IMG/VR virus record: IMGVR_UViG_3300037153_000540
Coordinates: 1-52,429 of that record
Source: a virus
DNA length: 52,429 nt
Strand: one strand, 5' to 3'
Under the pieces are notes generated by a model that was not told the DNA's origin, searched no databases, and saw only the letters and a list, made by a program, of their open reading frames with translations. Every line of letters begins with the position of its first letter. The stretch's first letter is position 1. Below, one piece after another: positions 16,995-24,000 of the stretch. Made by a program: the position numbers and the translations under genes.

Positions 16995-17732
16995 ATGAAG
17001 AGCTGCGACCACTGCGGCGCTCCCTTCAAGCCGTACCGACCCACCACCCGCTATTGCGGACCGACCTGCCGCAGCCGGGCCTACGGCAAGCGCCGCACAG
17101 CAGATGGCAGGCATGCCGCGTATCGCGCGACCCGTGCCGAGGAAATCCGCGCGCTCAACGCACGCGCACGAATCGAACGGTTCTGTGTGGTCTGCGGATC
17201 AAGCTGGCGCACTCGCAGGGCCGACGCCAAGTACTGCTCACAGGCGTGCTACAGCCAGGACGTGCAGGCCGGTAACGTCACGGTTGGACGACCCAAGAAG
17301 CCAGCACAGTCGAAGCCTGAGCGACGGGCTGCACTGCGCGAGTTGTTCGAGCGGGAGCGCTACGACGAGGCGCTTCAAAGGATCATGGCCCGGACCAAGT
17401 TGCTCAGCTCGGGATGCCGAGTAATCAAGGGCAAAGAGGACGAGCCATACCCGCAGATCTACTGGGCGAAGAACACGACCCGTGGTGCACACCGCCTGGT
17501 CCTTTGGGCCAAGGTCGGCGGCACGATCGACGGATGGCACGCACACCACCGGTGCGCCAACCCGGTATGTGTCGAGCCCGACCACCTGGTGCCTGCGACC
17601 GCTGCTGAGAACTCGGCTGAGATGTTGGCGCGTCGAACGTACGAGGCCGAGATCGAAGCCCTGAGGGCAGCACTGGCGGAGCTTGCTCCGGCACATCCGC
17701 TGCTTCGACGGCACCTCGCGGCCGTCGCCTGA
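16995..17732 (+). CDS. HNH endonuclease with N-terminal zinc fingers
   Basis: A 245-residue protein. Two Cys-rich fingers (CDHCGAPFKPYRPTTRYCGP, and a second from CVVCG to CSQAC) precede a basic linker and the HNH core (HRLVLWAKVGGTIDGWHAHH, ANPVCVEPDHLVPATAAEN). It is a free-standing homing-type enzyme with a lower GC content than the terminase genes. It lies between a terminator and TerS with its own start region, so it is probably transcribed independently. Confidence 0.85.
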   Translation: MKSCDHCGAPFKPYRPTTRYCGPTCRSRAYGKRRTADGRHAAYRATRAEEIRALNARARIERFCVVCGSSWRTRRADAKYCSQACYSQDVQAGNVTVGRPKKPAQSKPERRAALRELFERERYDEALQRIMARTKLLSSGCRVIKGKEDEPYPQIYWAKNTTRGAHRLVLWAKVGGTIDGWHAHHRCANPVCVEPDHLVPATAAENSAEMLARRTYEAEIEALRAALAELAPAHPLLRRHLAAVA

Positions 17733-17828
17733 CCCCCGGCGGTGGACTCCCCCCGGGCACCCTTTCGACACCGTCAAGTAGCTGCGGCTCGCGGCGCGTA
17801 CGGGTCTGCGAGGGGTTTGTCTACACAG

Positions 17829-17873
17829 CGTTACGGCCGCGCGTAAGGCCGGTATGCCGACGGGCTCACGGGC
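17829..17873 (+). promoter_or_regulatory. repeated leader element, copy 1 (before TerS)
   Basis: Matches 23953-24000. Block 1, from GCGTTACGGCCGCG to AAGGCCGGT, agrees at 23 of 26 positions; block 2, CCGACGGGCTCACGG, at 14 of 15. Between them a CGG-TATG-CCG hairpin replaces the longer CGGTG-CAA-CACCG of copy 2, so length changes while pairing is kept. It ends 16 nt before the TerS start. It could be a structured RNA leader or a late promoter; both are inference. Confidence 0.5.
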
Positions 17874-17888
17874 AAGGAGATCTCCACG

Positions 17889-18338
17889 ATGGCTGGTCAC
17901 GGACCCGCGCCGAAGGACCCGGCGAAGCGTCGCCGGCGGAACGCCGAGCCGAAGCCGCTCGACACGCTGGCCAGCGACGGCCGGACACGGGGCCCAGCTC
18001 TGCCGGAGGGCGTGCTGCCCGACGGCGAGGAGTGGCACGAGCGCACCCGAGCATGGTGGGCAACGTGGCGGAAGTCGGCGCAGGCGCAGGCGTTCACGCC
18101 GACGGACTGGGATTTCCTGCTCGACACGGCGCTGATGCATCACACGATGTGGTCGAAGCAGCGGTGGGAGTTCGCGGCGGAGCTCCGGCTCAGGGCCGGG
18201 AAGTTCGGTGCGACGCCGGAGGATCGGCTCAGGCTCCGCATGCAGATCGATCCGCAGCCGAAGGCGCCGGCGCGCCGGGCCGAGGGCGATGGCTCGGTCA
18301 CGGATATCTCGTCGCGGCGTTCTCGCCTCGCGGAGTAG
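17889..18338 (+). CDS. terS: terminase small subunit (P27-like)
   Basis: A 149-residue protein. GHGPAPKDPAKRRRRNAEPK and the Trp-rich ERTRAWWATWRKSAQAQAF region are typical of P27-like small terminases, which bind the packaging start site and recruit the large subunit. It is the first gene after the repeated leader element and lies 3 bp before TerL. Confidence 0.8.
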   Translation: MAGHGPAPKDPAKRRRRNAEPKPLDTLASDGRTRGPALPEGVLPDGEEWHERTRAWWATWRKSAQAQAFTPTDWDFLLDTALMHHTMWSKQRWEFAAELRLRAGKFGATPEDRLRLRMQIDPQPKAPARRAEGDGSVTDISSRRSRLAE

Positions 18339-18341
18339 CGC

Positions 18342-20021
18342 GTGCCGCGCACTCTGGTGCGGGCGCCGGCGCACGATCGGCACCGGTCGCTCGGATGGCT
18401 GGGTGTGGCGTGGATGGAGTTCTTCTGCCGTCACGGTCCCGGCGACGTGCAGGGCGACGAGGTACACCACGGCGACGAGGTCACGGGCTTCATCGTCGAC
18501 TGCTACGCCCTCGATGAGCACGGGCGGCTGCTTTACGATTCGGCGTTCCTGTCCCGGCCGAAGGGCTGTGACAAGTCGGGGCTCGCCAGCCGGTTCGTGC
18601 TGTTCGAGGCGCTCGGGCCGTGCCGGTTCGCAGGGTTCGCCAAGGGCGGCGAGGTCTACGAGGACCCGTGGGGTCTCGGTTTCCGGTACGTGTACGAGCC
18701 GGGCGAGCCGATGGGCCGGCACGTCACCGTCCCGTACATCCGCTGCATGGCCACCGAGGAGGGCCAGACCGGGAACGTCTACGACGCGGTCTACCTGAAC
18801 CTCACCGACGAGGACTTCCCGCTTTCGGCGATCCTCGGCCTGGACGCGGGCCTGACGCGGATCAACCTGCCGGGCGGCGGGGAGATCAACCCGTCGACGG
18901 CGAGCTCGGCGGCGAAGGACGGCGGCAAGGAGACGTTCGTCGTATTCGATGAGACGCACCTGTACAACCAGCCTGAGCTGCGGCGGATGTACAACACGGT
19001 CACTCGGAACCTGCGGAAGCGCAAGAAGATCGCGGGCACCTGGTTCCTGGAGACGACGACGATGTTCGCGGCCGGGGAGGACTCGGTCGCGGAGAAGACG
19101 TACAAGTTGGCCGAGCAGATCGAGGAAGGCAAGACCCGCCGGTCGCGTCTGCTGTACGACCACCGGTGGGGTGAGTGCGAGGACCTGTCCGCCGAAGAGC
19201 AGCTGCGCGCCGCGATCCTCGAGGCCTTCGGTGAGGCGATCGAGTGGAACGACATCGACGGGATCGTTGATGAGTTCTACGACACGCGTAAGGACCCGGC
19301 CGACAGCCGCAGGTACTTCCTGAACGCGGCTGGCTCCGCGGTCGACGCGTGGCTCGCGCAGTACGAGTGGGCGGGCCGCGCCGACGTGACGAAGGTCGTC
19401 GCGGACGGCGACATGGTCACGCTCGGGTTCGATGGTTCCCGGAAGCGTTCGGACGGTGTGACGGACGCGACGGCGCTGATCGGCTGCCGGGTGTCCGACG
19501 GGCACCTGTTTGAGCTCGGTGTCTGGGAGCAGCCGAAGGGCCCGGCCGGGCTCAACTGGCAGGTTCCCGTGGTTGAGGTGCTCGCCGCGGTCGACAACGC
19601 CTTCGAGCGGTTCAACGTCGTGGGGATGTATGCGGACCCGGCGAAGTGGGAGTCGCACGTCATCGGCTGGGAGGCCAAGTACGGCGGCCGGCTGAAGGTG
19701 AAGGCGACGCGGGATCATCCGATCCAGTGGTGGATGACGGGCGGCCGCGCGACGCTGATCGTCCGAGCGACGCTGGCGCTGCACACGGCGATCGTTGAGG
19801 GTGAGATGACCCATGACGGGTCGTACGCGCTGACCCGGCACATGCTGAACGCCCGGCGCAGGGTGAGCCGCATGGGCATCCAGATCGCGAAGGATCACCC
19901 CGACTCGGCGAACAAGATCGACGCCGCGGTGGCGTCGGTTCTGGCGTGGGAGGCCCGCGCGGACGCGATCGCGAAGGGCGTGCTCGCGGAGGACGCCGAG
20001 ATGTTCGGTGGGACGTTCTGA
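18342..20021 (+). CDS. terL: terminase large subunit
   Basis: A 559-residue protein from GTG. A degenerate Walker A (SRPKGCDKSGLA, 71-82), a Walker B with catalytic Glu (FVVFDETH, D203-E204) and the RNase-H-like nuclease strand TLGFDGSRKRSDG identify the packaging ATPase/nuclease. The C-terminal helices (SANKIDAAVASVLAWEA) contribute the last acidic residue. It follows TerS and precedes the portal, the standard order. Confidence 0.92.
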   Translation: MPRTLVRAPAHDRHRSLGWLGVAWMEFFCRHGPGDVQGDEVHHGDEVTGFIVDCYALDEHGRLLYDSAFLSRPKGCDKSGLASRFVLFEALGPCRFAGFAKGGEVYEDPWGLGFRYVYEPGEPMGRHVTVPYIRCMATEEGQTGNVYDAVYLNLTDEDFPLSAILGLDAGLTRINLPGGGEINPSTASSAAKDGGKETFVVFDETHLYNQPELRRMYNTVTRNLRKRKKIAGTWFLETTTMFAAGEDSVAEKTYKLAEQIEEGKTRRSRLLYDHRWGECEDLSAEEQLRAAILEAFGEAIEWNDIDGIVDEFYDTRKDPADSRRYFLNAAGSAVDAWLAQYEWAGRADVTKVVADGDMVTLGFDGSRKRSDGVTDATALIGCRVSDGHLFELGVWEQPKGPAGLNWQVPVVEVLAAVDNAFERFNVVGMYADPAKWESHVIGWEAKYGGRLKVKATRDHPIQWWMTGGRATLIVRATLALHTAIVEGEMTHDGSYALTRHMLNARRRVSRMGIQIAKDHPDSANKIDAAVASVLAWEARADAIAKGVLAEDAEMFGGTF

Positions 20022-20036
20022 CGATGGGAGGGCGCT

Positions 20037-21479
20037 GTGCTCGATGACGCCGACGTGGCGCTCTCTCCTGGCTGGTGGCTTCTGCGGCTCGGCCGGAAGC
20101 TCCGCGACCGGCGTGAGCGGCTCGACCTGTGGTGGGACTACTTCACTGGCGATCACCCTCTGCCGAAGGGCCCGAAGCGGGCGACGGATGCGTACCGCGA
20201 CTTCCAGAAGAAGAGCAGGACGAACTTCTGCGAGACGGTCGCGACCGCCAGTGTGAACCGCCTGAAGGCGATCGGCATCGCCGACGAGCACGGCGACAGC
20301 GACGACGAGGCGTGGAAGTGGTGGCAGCTGAACAAGCTGGATGCCAAGCAGAAGCAGGTGTACCGCGTCGCCACGAGCCAGTCGATCGGGTATGTCATCG
20401 CCGGTCCGCACCCGCGGAACGAAAAGATCCCGCTCGTCACGGCCGAGCATCCGCGCGAGGTCATCGTCGAGGAGGACCCGGCCACCGGTGAGCGTCTCGC
20501 CGGCGTTAAGGCCTGGTACGACGACATCGCCAGGGTCGGCCGCGTGAACGTCTACCTTCCGGACAGGGTCGTGCGGTACGCCACGGACCGGCGCGGGCCG
20601 GGCCGGCTGCCGTGGGGCCGTGAGAACTGGACGCTCCTCGGGGAGACACAGCACCAGCTCGGCGCGGTGCCGGTGGTGCCCTTCCCGTGCCGACCGGATC
20701 TGGGCGAAGAGCCCGTCGCCGAGTTCCACGGCGTGCTCGACGTGCAGGACCGCGTGAACTTCGGCGTGCTGAACAGGATGACGGCGGGCCGCTACGGCGC
20801 GTTCAGGCAGGGCTTCGTCACCGGCCACAAGTTCCGGCGCGTGCAGGACCCGGAAACCGGCCTGGAGGTCATCGAGAACCCGTTCGTGCCCGATCCCGGC
20901 TCCCTGTGGGCGTCCGAGGGGAAGGACACAAGCTTCGGCTGGTCGCCGCAGACCGATCTGATGGGCTACCTGCGCGAGCACGAGACCGACATCCGCACGC
21001 TGCTGATCATGTCCAAGACACCCGCGTACTACTACGCCGGCGACTTGATCAACGTGGCGGTGGACATGATCGCCGCGCTCGACGCGATGCACATCGCGAA
21101 GGTCGAGGAGCATCAGGATGTCTTCGGTGAGGCGTGGGAAGAGGTCTTCGCGCTCTGCGCCCGGGTGGCCGGGGTCGACCGGGACTTCACCGCCTCGGAG
21201 ATGCGGTGGGCGGACCCGCGGCAGCTCAACCCGGCGGTCCTGGCCGACGCGGCCACGAAGAAGAAGTCGATCGGTTACCCGCTCGCGGTGCTGGCCGAGG
21301 ATCTCGGTGAGTCGCCGCAGCGCGTCAACCGGATCACCTCGGAGGCGGCCGCTGACGCGCTGCTGGCCGCGGCCACCGCGCCGGCCGTTCCGCCGCCGGG
21401 CCAGCCAGTACCGACGCCGCCGGTCACCGCGCCGACCAACCAGGGCCCCGTACGGGCCCCCGCGGCCGCTCGGGCATAG
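20037..21479 (+). CDS. portal protein (SPP1 Gp6-like)
   Basis: A 480-residue protein, the usual length. LDLWWDYFTGDHPLPKGPKR, FCETVATASVNRLKAIGIAD, the GAVPVVPFPCRPD strand and the long helix PAYYYAGDLINVAVDMIAAL match SPP1-type portals, the dodecameric ring through which DNA enters and leaves. The tail is Pro/Ala-rich. Confidence 0.9.
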   Translation: MLDDADVALSPGWWLLRLGRKLRDRRERLDLWWDYFTGDHPLPKGPKRATDAYRDFQKKSRTNFCETVATASVNRLKAIGIADEHGDSDDEAWKWWQLNKLDAKQKQVYRVATSQSIGYVIAGPHPRNEKIPLVTAEHPREVIVEEDPATGERLAGVKAWYDDIARVGRVNVYLPDRVVRYATDRRGPGRLPWGRENWTLLGETQHQLGAVPVVPFPCRPDLGEEPVAEFHGVLDVQDRVNFGVLNRMTAGRYGAFRQGFVTGHKFRRVQDPETGLEVIENPFVPDPGSLWASEGKDTSFGWSPQTDLMGYLREHETDIRTLLIMSKTPAYYYAGDLINVAVDMIAALDAMHIAKVEEHQDVFGEAWEEVFALCARVAGVDRDFTASEMRWADPRQLNPAVLADAATKKKSIGYPLAVLAEDLGESPQRVNRITSEAAADALLAAATAPAVPPPGQPVPTPPVTAPTNQGPVRAPAAARA

Positions 21480-21482
21480 CCG

Positions 21483-23246
21483 ATGAGCCTCGACGAACAG
21501 GCGGCGCTGATCGTGGCGTTCAACACCGCCGAGAAGCGGGTCCGTGCGCATCTGGTCGCGTACGTGCTGGGCTTGTTCGGTGGCCTCGGCTCGTGGCGGG
21601 ACCGCGACAAGGCACGGTTCGCCGCCCAGGTGACGCCGGTCGTGGCCGGTGCACAGCGTCAGGTCGCTTCGCTGATGGACGCGTACCTGGCGCGGCTGCT
21701 GTCGGACATGCGCGGCCGCCCTGCCCGCCCGGCCGGGGCCATCCCGGACGTGAGCCGGCTGCGTGGCGTCGACCCGGCCATCGTGTATGGCCGGCCGTTC
21801 GACACCGTGTGGGCTGAGCTCGCTGAAGGCCGTGACTTCGAGCAGGCGCTGGCGGCCGGGCGGCTGCGGGCCGAGCAGATCACCAAGACGGATCTGCAGC
21901 TCGCGGAGACGCACACGGCACGCGCGCTGCTCGAGGACGACCGCGACGTGGTCGGGTACCGGCGTGTGCTGACCGGCACGACATCGTGTGGGCTGTGTGT
22001 GGTTGCCTCGACGCAGCGGTACCACCGCGGTGAGCTGCTGCCGATCCACCCAGGCTGCGTACCCGAAGGGACGCCGGTCGCCGCGCGCGATGTCCTAGCC
22101 GTCACGCGCCGGAAGTATGCCGGAGAACTCTCCGTCATCCGTACGACCTCGGGCGATGAGGTAACCGTCACCGCGAACCACCCGGTACTCACCGACCAGG
22201 GATGGATCCCTGGTCACGTCGTTCGCGAAGGCGATTACGTAGTCCGCAGCGCGGGCGGTCATCGGATGGTTGGTCGTGGCCCACAGGAAAGCGATCGCCC
22301 AGTTTTGGCCGAGGATGTATGGCGTTCGGCGAGTGTGGCGGGGCTTGTTCAGGTGCCACTCGCCGCCGAGGATTTCCACGGCGACGGAGCCGATGGCGAA
22401 GTCGAGATTGTACGGACCGACCGCCACCTCGCGCCGGTAGGGGATGTCTCGTTCGGTCAGCCACTCGGCGAATCGCTGCTCGTGGACGGACATGGCCGGG
22501 GGCGCCTTCTCTCGCCCGGCGGCTACGCGGCACCGTTCATCCCAGGTGGCCTTACGGCCTCGCGAAGCATCATGGGCAGCGCGGGCCTGAGCGGCGCGCT
22601 CCTCGGAGGTCATCTGTCCAGCGCGCACGAGGCCCGCTTGGGAGCGGTCGCGACGGGGAACCTTGCGGTCCTGGAGAAGGCGGGAGATGGCGTCTCGCTG
22701 GACTCCGTACTTCTCGGCCAGCGCGAGTTCGGACAGGCCGTCGAGGTAGCCCTGAACGACCTCATCGGCAGGCAGCTCGCGCCACGTCCCACGTCGGCGC
22801 GTTTCGATCCCCCGGCGGCGGAGTTCACGGGCGAGGGTCGTCGCGCCTACGCCGTGCTTGGTCGCCGCTTGCTTGATCGACTGGCAGGACAGGTAGAGCT
22901 GGACCGCGTTGTCGAGGTTCGCCGGGTCGACTACTCGGGGCATGTCTACAACCTCCATACGGCCGAGGGATGGTATTCGGCCAACAGTCACATCATATCT
23001 AACTGTGACTGCGGTATCGCGCCGATCCTCGGCGACACCGACCCAGGCCACGTCATCAACGCCCCGTTGCTGGAGGACGTGCACGACCGCATCCAAGAGC
23101 GGTTCGGTGTCTCGGACCGCAGCGGGCGCAAGCCGATCGACTACCGGGATCTGCTCGTTACGCATCAGCACGGCGAGATCGGGCCAGTGATCGCCGTGAG
23201 GGGGCAAAGCTGGACCGGCCCGGCAGACGTCAGCCGTAACGCTTGA
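21483..23246 (+). CDS. MuF-like minor capsid protein interrupted by an intein
   Basis: A 587-residue precursor. Residues 1-191 and 508-587 form a MuF-type minor head protein: RALLEDDRDVVGYRRVLTGT, CGLCVVASTQRYHRGELLPI and HPG join across the intein to CDCGIAPI, the conserved HPxCxC element. Residues 192-507 are the intein. Splicing would give a 271-residue protein. The C-terminal codons (VIAVRGQSWTGPADVSRNA) overlap an antisense HNH gene by 17 bp, and a similar sequence, probably the older end, lies beyond that gene. Confidence 0.88.
   Translation: MSLDEQAALIVAFNTAEKRVRAHLVAYVLGLFGGLGSWRDRDKARFAAQVTPVVAGAQRQVASLMDAYLARLLSDMRGRPARPAGAIPDVSRLRGVDPAIVYGRPFDTVWAELAEGRDFEQALAAGRLRAEQITKTDLQLAETHTARALLEDDRDVVGYRRVLTGTTSCGLCVVASTQRYHRGELLPIHPGCVPEGTPVAARDVLAVTRRKYAGELSVIRTTSGDEVTVTANHPVLTDQGWIPGHVVREGDYVVRSAGGHRMVGRGPQESDRPVLAEDVWRSASVAGLVQVPLAAEDFHGDGADGEVEIVRTDRHLAPVGDVSFGQPLGESLLVDGHGRGRLLSPGGYAAPFIPGGLTASRSIMGSAGLSGALLGGHLSSAHEARLGAVATGNLAVLEKAGDGVSLDSVLLGQREFGQAVEVALNDLIGRQLAPRPTSARFDPPAAEFTGEGRRAYAVLGRRLLDRLAGQVELDRVVEVRRVDYSGHVYNLHTAEGWYSANSHIISNCDCGIAPILGDTDPGHVINAPLLEDVHDRIQERFGVSDRSGRKPIDYRDLLVTHQHGEIGPVIAVRGQSWTGPADVSRNA
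22056..23003 (+). mobile_element. intein in the MuF gene (316 residues)
   Basis: Starts at Cys192 (CVPEGTPVAARDVL, block A). Block B is GDEVTVTANHPVLTDQGW with T230-x-x-H233. Block F is VYNLHTAEGWYSAN, and the end is IISN507 followed by Cys508 as +1 residue. The penultimate residue is Ser rather than the usual His, a variant tolerated in some inteins. The middle (about residues 258-475) has no recognisable endonuclease on this strand; the antisense strand encodes one. The insertion point is the most conserved motif of the host protein, as is usual for inteins. Confidence 0.88.
22095..22958 (-). CDS. antisense Vsr/DUF559-like homing endonuclease inside the intein
   Basis: A 287-residue frame lying wholly within the intein DNA on the opposite strand, codon-for-codon in register with the intein frame. 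Two helix-turn-helix motifs (QSIKQAATKHGVGATTLARE, residues 26-45; SELALAEKYGVQRDAISRLL, 76-95) precede a nuclease core: E160, VGPYNLDFAIG with D186, VAVEILGGEWH with E195 and H202, then RAADYVIAFA. This is the Vsr-like fold used by one class of homing endonucleases. ATG at 22943 is an alternative start. A -10-like TATGAT lies upstream at 22997-22992. The protein signature is far stronger than expected for a chance antisense frame. Confidence 0.8.
   Translation of the reverse strand: MEVVDMPRVVDPANLDNAVQLYLSCQSIKQAATKHGVGATTLARELRRRGIETRRRGTWRELPADEVVQGYLDGLSELALAEKYGVQRDAISRLLQDRKVPRRDRSQAGLVRAGQMTSEERAAQARAAHDASRGRKATWDERCRVAAGREKAPPAMSVHEQRFAEWLTERDIPYRREVAVGPYNLDFAIGSVAVEILGGEWHLNKPRHTRRTPYILGQNWAIAFLWATTNHPMTARAADYVIAFANDVTRDPSLVGEYRVVRGDGYLIARGRTDDGEFSGILPARDG
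22986..23010. promoter_or_regulatory. inverted repeat across the intein C-terminal splice junction
   Basis: AGTCACA (22986-22992) and TGTGACT (23004-23010) flank an 11-bp AT-rich centre. The right arm is the first codons of the C-extein and the junction lies at 23003/23004. TATGAT on the minus strand falls inside, so the site may act as promoter/operator for the antisense endonuclease or be part of its target. Confidence 0.45.
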
Positions 23247-23874
23247 GGATCTCCTTCGCCCAGGCAACGAGATCGGGTACTCGCTGGCCACTCGGCTGAG
23301 ACGTGATCCATAGTTCGAGGTTTTCGGGTCGGTTGTCGTCCCGGACCCCATTGATGTGGTGGACGTTCTCGCCTGGCAGCAATGGTCGGCCGAGAATCTG
23401 CTCCATGACGAGTCGATGCTCGAAGACGTAGCCGCCTCGGTATGCAGCGATGTGGTCTGAGACGCGGAGCAGGATGTAGCCCTTGCGATCCATGATCCGC
23501 CCGTCGCGCAAAGGTGCCTCGAATGGGACGCCGCGACGTTGCCGATCGTAGTGAAAAGCGCAGAACCCCTTCGCGTAGAACTTGCGTTCGCAGTCGGCGA
23601 CCGAGCACAGACCGGTGGTCGAGTAGAGGCGAGCGGGCGGTGGCTCAAGGGGACGCCCCATCCGAACGCGTTCCTTATGCATCTTGCACATCCCGCGTTC
23701 GTAAGTGGCCGAGTCGCGCTGACACCCGTCCACCACGCACCCCGGCTTCGGCATCTTGCGCGGCAGTAGCGCAACGTTGACGGGTTTACCGGCGCGCTGC
23801 CGCTGGTAGTGGCCGGGACAAAGCCCGCGAGCGCGGGCTGGGCGGTCGCAAGGCTCTGCGATACACGTACTCAT
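23230..23874 (-). CDS. HNH homing endonuclease with zinc fingers, antisense to MuF end
   Basis: A 214-residue protein. Three small Cys/His fingers (CIAEPCDRPARARGLCPGHY; CVVDGCQRDSATYERGMCKM; CSVADCERKFYAKGFCAFHY) precede the HNH core (VFEHRLVMEQILGRPLLPGE, NVHHINGVRDDNRPENLELW). The gene converges on MuF and its stop overlaps the MuF stop region by 17 bp. A TAAACT box lies 7 nt before the ATG, suggesting leaderless expression from its own promoter. Confidence 0.88.
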   Translation of the reverse strand: MSTCIAEPCDRPARARGLCPGHYQRQRAGKPVNVALLPRKMPKPGCVVDGCQRDSATYERGMCKMHKERVRMGRPLEPPPARLYSTTGLCSVADCERKFYAKGFCAFHYDRQRRGVPFEAPLRDGRIMDRKGYILLRVSDHIAAYRGGYVFEHRLVMEQILGRPLLPGENVHHINGVRDDNRPENLELWITSQPSGQRVPDLVAWAKEILKRYG

Positions 23875-23884
23875 GCGCAGAGTT

Positions 23885-23950
23885 TACGTCGTTCTCGCCG
23901 TGCGCGGCCATGAGTTCCGCGCACAACCTGACCTACCCGCCTCGGCGGGG
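23885..23950 (+). pseudogene. probable relic of the original MuF 3' end
   Basis: Reads VYVVLAVRGHEFRAQPDLPA, which aligns with the current MuF end PVIAVRGQSWTGPADVS (six identities in 16, with I/L, W/F and V/L exchanges). It lies just outside the 5' end of the antisense HNH gene. I interpret it as the older 3' end, displaced when the HNH cassette inserted. Confidence 0.5.
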
Positions 23951-23952
23951 AA

Positions 23953-24000
23953 GCGCTACGGCCGCGCTGAAGGCCGGTGCAACACCGACGGGTTCACGGA
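23953..24000 (+). promoter_or_regulatory. repeated leader element, copy 2 (before scaffold)
   Basis: Second copy of the element at 17829-17873, ending 6 nt before the scaffold start. Its central hairpin is CGGTG-CAA-CACCG. See copy 1. Confidence 0.5.

Follow-up and report, generated by a model that had tools for sequence, protein, structure and literature searches.

A phage capsid-gene intein with a putative homing endonuclease gene encoded in register on its opposite strand

The DNA analysed here is a stretch of 52,429 nt from viral record IMGVR_UViG_3300037153_000540 (the whole of this stretch is referred to as the window). It contains a head gene whose product matches PHROG 1522 (head maturation protease, E 7e-71), and which is interrupted by an intein with an ORF on its opposite strand. 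The features of this locus are as follows:

21483..23246, + strand: MuF-like minor capsid / head morphogenesis gene, containing the intein; precursor of 587 aa
22056..23003, + strand: intein of 316 aa (C192..N507 of MuF), identified by Intein_splicing, TIGR01445, PDB profiles and the Hint core of an AlphaFold2 (AF2) model
22170..22193, + strand: splicing block B (TANHPVLT), sense excess conservation 0.32
22374..22388, + strand: FHGDG motif, constrained in both frames; it mirrors the antisense VAVE, which holds the putative catalytic Glu190
22431..22793, + strand: sense linker (intein residues ~126-246), predicted to be disordered (pLDDT <50), sense excess ~0
22938..23003, + strand: splicing blocks F and G (GHVYNLHTAEGWYSANSHIISN), beneath which the antisense start signals lie
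22095..22943, - strand: antisense homing-endonuclease-like gene, 282 aa plus stop, with two helix-turn-helix (HTH) motifs (~1-95) and a Vsr/DUF559 (PD-(D/E)XK-like) domain (~150-250; E155, D181, E190)
22952..22956, - strand: Shine-Dalgarno sequence GGAGG of the antisense gene, within block F codons
22992..22997, - strand: -10-like TATGAT of the antisense gene, within block G codons, weak by itself

The initial annotation of this DNA had recognized a MuF intein with N- and C-terminal splicing blocks, and this assignment is borne out. Blocks A, B, F (GHVYNLHTAEGWYSAN) and G (HIISN^C) are all present, and the sequence matches TIGR01445 (intein_Nterm) above its cut-off and Pfam Intein_splicing with an E value of 2e-7, which is below the curated cut-off. 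Comparison of an intein profile with PDB retrieved the Mtu RecA/KlbA inteins (E 1e-9 to 1e-11). In the AF2 model of the sense intein, residues 1-70 and 250-316 are ordered and form the Hint halves, with the disordered residues 126-246 between them; the top Foldseek matches of this model are inteins (probability up to 1.00, but E 5e-3). The insertion point lies before the CxC of the HPxCxC motif of MuF. The intein-less homologs VWB and SF1 align with the exteins only, and the joined exteins of the window (ELLPIHPG^CDCGIAPIL) agree across the junction with those of the intein-less Streptomyces phage SF1 (NLMPIHPGCNCKPEPI). Among 66 aligned inteins, C1, T39, H42 and N316 are invariant, and T, H, L, T and G of the block B region are invariant or nearly so; the +1 extein Cys is found in the window and in 66/66 inteins. 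It had also been stated that the intein encodes no endonuclease on its own strand. In accordance with this, no match to a LAGLIDADG domain was found between blocks B and F of the sense intein, and this segment is predicted to be disordered. On sequence and structure prediction, the insertion meets the criteria of an intein (blocks, in-frame joinable exteins and Hint fold), splicing itself being inferred.

The frame of the antisense gene corresponds codon-for-codon to that of the intein (offset 0), as originally claimed, and ends with a stop codon at 22095-22097. The ORF is considered real, but its proposed start was not retained: the earlier 287-aa version began at ATG 22958, five codons farther out than ATG 22941-22943, which is placed 8 nt past the GGAGG sequence, is the start conserved among relatives, and gives a protein of 282 aa. 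The openness of an antisense frame is by itself weak evidence, because the genome is GC-rich and contains a spurious ORF of 1603 aa. This antisense open frame of 1603 codons (17238-22049, - strand) spans the upstream head genes and MuF, and is best read as a GC-composition artefact. The antisense gene of the intein represents more than chance because of its homology, its conservation, its embedded signals and the existence of AT-rich relatives.

The antisense protein had been described as carrying two HTH motifs and a Vsr/DUF559-like nuclease, a proposal that a lack of similarity to any nuclease family would have refuted; matches were obtained at the level of family, profile and fold. The single protein matched NCBIfam DUF559 (E 3e-7) and several HTH families. 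A profile of 65 antisense relatives, compared with PDB, matched (i) 3hrl, a DUF559 endonuclease-like protein (3.9e-7), (ii) 3r3p, the phage homing endonuclease I-Bth0305I (1.5e-5), and (iii) an HTH protein (4e-8). Pfam REase_MTES_1575 is matched by 45 of the 65 relatives and DUF559 by 16. The AF2 model of the antisense protein has a mean pLDDT of 91.8, and its top solved structure in Foldseek is also I-Bth0305I (3r3p; probability 1.00, E 2e-3). Residues Y178, D181, E190 and R206 are invariant in the 65 relatives, and E155 is nearly so. Thus, of the catalytic residues initially proposed, D186 and E195 (D181 and E190 from the better start) are upheld, as is the expectation of purifying selection at nuclease residues, whereas H202 (H197 in the 282-aa protein) is conserved only in a closer subgroup. 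With regard to the full E-D-x-H-D signature, D181/E190 are invariant, E155 nearly so and H197 limited to a subgroup; these proteins may constitute a sister DUF559-like group. The antisense protein is predicted to have a catalytic fold of the Vsr/DUF559 type, in which the acidic residues are conserved, and cleavage activity is inferred from this.

Evidence for mobility comes from Salmonella-phage relatives and not from the locus of the window, for whose phage a closely related sister without the intein is lacking. In Salmonella phages, a single site occurs both filled and empty. The exteins of SaI_NFG_5577 (filled) and VSiA (empty) are identical in length (1044 nt; junction ...PAHPN^CRSTTAPV), and the DNA identity of these phages, 96-99% far from the insertion, falls to 72-77% in the 60 bp that flank it on each side. 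This dip is interpreted as a co-conversion footprint of homing. Moreover, inteins sharing 83-86% identity were found in phages whose N-exteins are just 64-73% identical. No other annotated endonuclease was seen beside the Salmonella intein sites. The window contains a separate HNH_3 endonuclease gene (23230-23874, - strand; 214 aa; Pfam E 3e-10), which lies immediately downstream of the intein-containing gene, overlaps the 3′ end of MuF and could add to mobility there.

These observations bear on the possibility that the antisense nuclease is real and no longer homes, being kept by the phage as a regulator that binds DNA or for exclusion, with the intein moved otherwise or immobile. Such a role would suit the two HTH motifs, HTH regulators being common in phages; cleavage data are absent, and homing endonucleases seldom stay active in the long term. 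However, the catalytic D/E residues are invariant in 65/65 relatives, and the presence/absence polymorphism is combined with a co-conversion footprint. In addition, the two-strand intein occupies unrelated host genes, encoding a dCMP deaminase (Virus Rctr197k, L010), a prohead protease-like protein (L063) and a GH19-like protein (L207), which also argues against loss of homing, because it is expected of a mobile element. We therefore regard this alternative as unlikely.

A tblastn search with the antisense protein matched 129 phage records (Gordonia, Salmonella, Klebsiella, Pseudomonas, Vibrio, Aggregatibacter, Pantoea, Cronobacter and others), and nearly all matches listed lie opposite a head-morphogenesis or unnamed gene. 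Single-protein searches of viral contigs and genome contigs found no relatives; a profile of 13 antisense proteins retrieved 292 from viral contigs, of which 80 were kept for further use. There were five matches in bacterial genomes, and the register is kept in these as well. In 92 of 93 nuclease loci, spanning 42 to 72% GC, the register-opposite frame contains zero stops over the match, while each of the two remaining opposite frames has 2-34. A motif search located blocks B, F and G and the C-terminal Asn in 68 of 74 non-redundant loci; in the remaining 6 the search was defeated by spacing or fragment ends.

Because these loci had been found via the antisense protein, a sense-only search was performed with blocks A-B alone as the query. 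All of the 80 best inteins (80/80) bear the antisense nuclease in register, and the routine breakage of the antisense frame in homologous inteins, which would have refuted the initial annotation, was not encountered. The A-B query was built from members of this intein family, and more distant inteins lie outside the sample. Inteins with an antisense nuclease are widespread: dozens of phage lineages have retained them, and the phages and prophages concerned are numerous and diverse. The depositors of Escherichia phages Snoke and vB-Eco-KMB36 annotated the sense intein, and those of vB_StyS-sam annotated fragmentary ORFs within it; in all three the full antisense gene is unannotated.

The sole exception among the 93 loci is Acinetobacter phage vB_AbaM_IME285 (L012:455-1345, + strand), which has a free-standing nuclease relative next to a MuF gene that lacks the intein, the two genes being convergent; this relative is possibly an ancestor of the nested form or an escapee from it. 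This arrangement is what would lend credence to a free-standing nuclease gene having been inserted backwards, the sense "intein" being a degenerate relic or the insert being removed as an RNA intron. This is very improbable in view of the conservation of blocks A, B, F and G and C1/N/+1C beyond what antisense coding explains, of a sense frame kept open where about 225 stops are expected, and of the absence of any group I/II intron family at E<=1 within 21400-24000.

Examined per column, sense constraint beyond that of the antisense frame was found in blocks A/B, the FHGD motif and block F. In the FHGD region, sense H/G/D and antisense E/V/A are each conserved beyond what the opposite frame explains. 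The FHGDG motif, which belongs to the N-terminal half of the splicing domain, is independently conserved in the window and in relatives. For host residues ~318-437, sense conservation is wholly accounted for by the antisense gene (sense excess about 0), and this stretch coincides with the one disordered in the AF2 model. The catalytic domain shares its DNA with the N-terminal splicing half; the slot held by the endonuclease domain in ordinary inteins is taken by the HTHs. The mutual constraint first postulated for the two genes holds mainly where the catalytic domain overlaps blocks A/B and FHGD; for the central sense segment itself, the only constraint detectable is to stay open.

A first count of antisense stops over the antisense ORF (1 vs 313) was partly circular, since the region ended at the antisense stop. 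The count was therefore repeated on sense-found loci, between sense anchors B and F, with expected numbers derived from sense residues and local codon usage. In 66 non-redundant loci, 0 antisense stops were observed against 325 expected; the same test on exteins, as a control, gave 170 observed and 173 expected. Plain-permutation conservation z-scores were inflated by relatedness, and were replaced by pairwise tests with extein controls. At matched divergence (sense identity <50%), the excess of antisense identity over that expected from synonymous codons was 0.12-0.16 for the core and about 0.00-0.01 for the N-exteins.

Substitutions were also counted by sense codon position (1/2/3) in eight Salmonella/Escherichia/Pantoea phages; they numbered 745/476/2187 in the N-extein and 853/130/255 in the linker, for which omega_antisense is 0.13 (the counts are pairwise sums, and hence non-independent events). 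To judge from these alignments, the linker pattern is the mirror image expected of antisense coding. Both strands are under selection: the splicing blocks on the sense strand, and the catalytic residues and HTHs on the antisense strand. The view that the antisense ORF merely results from the GC-rich codons of a long-linker mini-intein, with the sense strand alone coding, could appeal to the high GC content of the window and to its other long antisense ORFs, e.g. the 1603-codon frame, but it is refuted by the concentration of linker substitutions at antisense third positions and by the 0 vs 325 stops, and is further contradicted by retention of the arrangement at 42-48% GC (Aaphi23, Vibrio, Klebsiella), by the homology to nuclease families, and by a confidently modelled antisense protein (pLDDT 91.8) opposite a disordered sense linker.

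Of 66 inteins, 56 have their antisense start (45 ATG, 11 GTG) at the histidine codon of block F; the other 10 have no ATG/GTG at this position, and some of them start nearby. Synonymous redraws of sense codons in 49 loci served as the null for the start signals. GAGG upstream of the antisense start was present in 30/49 loci (8.9+-2.5 expected), ATG instead of GTG in 37/49 (13.6+-2.4 expected) and a perfect TATAAT at -51 in 12/49 (0.7+-0.8 expected). Shared codon ancestry inflates these contrasts somewhat. An exact promoter hexamer would otherwise be hard to explain. The TATGAT of the window (5/6 match) is at -54, three bases farther up than the -51 box of the relatives. The embedded signals support independent expression of the antisense gene, which is inferred in the absence of transcript data.

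What the computations show is the codon register, selection on both strands, the start signals, the fold of the nuclease and, in relatives, mobility with its co-conversion footprint. We conclude, with a probability of about 0.88, that the locus contains a mobile intein and, in register with it on the other strand, the gene of its homing endonuclease; protein splicing, the specificity of cutting and expression of the antisense gene are inferences. Reading of the capsid gene would produce a precursor, from which the Hint domain (A/B plus F/G) would excise itself and rejoin MuF, the middle of the sense precursor being a disordered by-product of the antisense gene. Since the sense strand would supply protein splicing, the insertion would be tolerated. 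Reading of the opposite strand, from its own start signals within F/G, would yield a free folded nuclease (two HTHs plus Vsr/DUF559), which would cut intein-less alleles, with repair then copying the intein in. The antisense protein is most likely the homing endonuclease of the intein, although its cleavage activity is an inference.

We propose the term "ambigrammatic intein" for what is probably a widespread, undescribed class of mobile elements, in which a single DNA segment specifies a splicing protein on one strand and, in matching codons on the other, the homing endonuclease of the element, with the Shine-Dalgarno sequence of the enzyme and, in some members, a promoter inside the splicing motifs. 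If this is correct, these elements rank with the clearest natural examples of extended, codon-aligned two-strand protein coding in phage DNA, with selection measurable on each strand. To in-frame fusion and the split-intein arrangement they would add a third mode of association between endonuclease and intein, in which the enzyme is made as a free protein, uncoupled from host-gene expression, and its loss is tied to damage of an essential protein. They may account for the apparent "large inteins without an endonuclease" that interrupt capsid genes in many phages, such as the one of 273 residues annotated in Snoke, and would reveal a conserved gene family antisense to head genes that has been overlooked by gene callers. 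Laboratory phages with two-strand inteins are ready test systems.

The main risk to novelty is a preprint on actinophage inteins by Gosselin, Arsenault and Gogarten, entitled "Actinobacteriophage Inteins ... Non-Canonical Architecture", which is cited in PMC11855218. An antisense or overlapping intein endonuclease is undescribed in the open papers searched, a scope that does not include bioRxiv 2025.01.02.630785. Already known are inteins with endonucleases (PMC5050341), Vsr-like homing endonucleases (PMC3943268) and out-of-frame hidden endonucleases (PMC11855218).

Canonical large inteins contain an in-frame LAGLIDADG homing endonuclease, e.g. the TerL inteins of mycobacteriophages (PMC5050341). 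They share with the element described here the Hint-fold splicing blocks, a conserved phage gene as the insertion site and endonuclease-driven homing. However, their endonuclease is built into the intein polypeptide itself and encoded on the same strand, whereas that of the window would be a separate opposite-strand protein, facing a disordered sense linker. The EDxHD/Vsr-like homing endonuclease family includes I-Bth0305I (PDB 3r3p; PMC3943268). The likeness to this family comprises the catalytic fold (by sequence profile and Foldseek), a multi-domain DNA-binding region and a phage home. Split-intein "fractured genes", reportedly described by Dassa in 2009, also associate a Vsr-like endonuclease with inteins. 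Known members of the EDxHD/Vsr-like family are free-standing, intron-encoded or located between split intein halves, in contrast to the antisense position within a contiguous intein, for which no precedent was found in the Vsr-like/EDxHD literature searched.

The ShiLan domain, found in a phage methylase, is an HNH endonuclease encoded out of frame (PMC11855218). Here too, a hidden endonuclease overlaps a translated insertion in an actinophage gene, but it is of the HNH type, lies on the same strand (third frame), and the insertion is not an intein and has no self-splicing domains. Group I introns in nuclear rDNA can hold homing-endonuclease genes antisense to the host gene; unlike in the intein, the intron RNA need not be translated, and no dual protein coding is required. 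In ambigrammatic narnaviruses nearly the whole reverse strand is open, and this reverse frame has been argued to encode no functional protein (PMC6884476, PMC8155312), whereas in the two-strand inteins selection at the protein level is seen on both strands.
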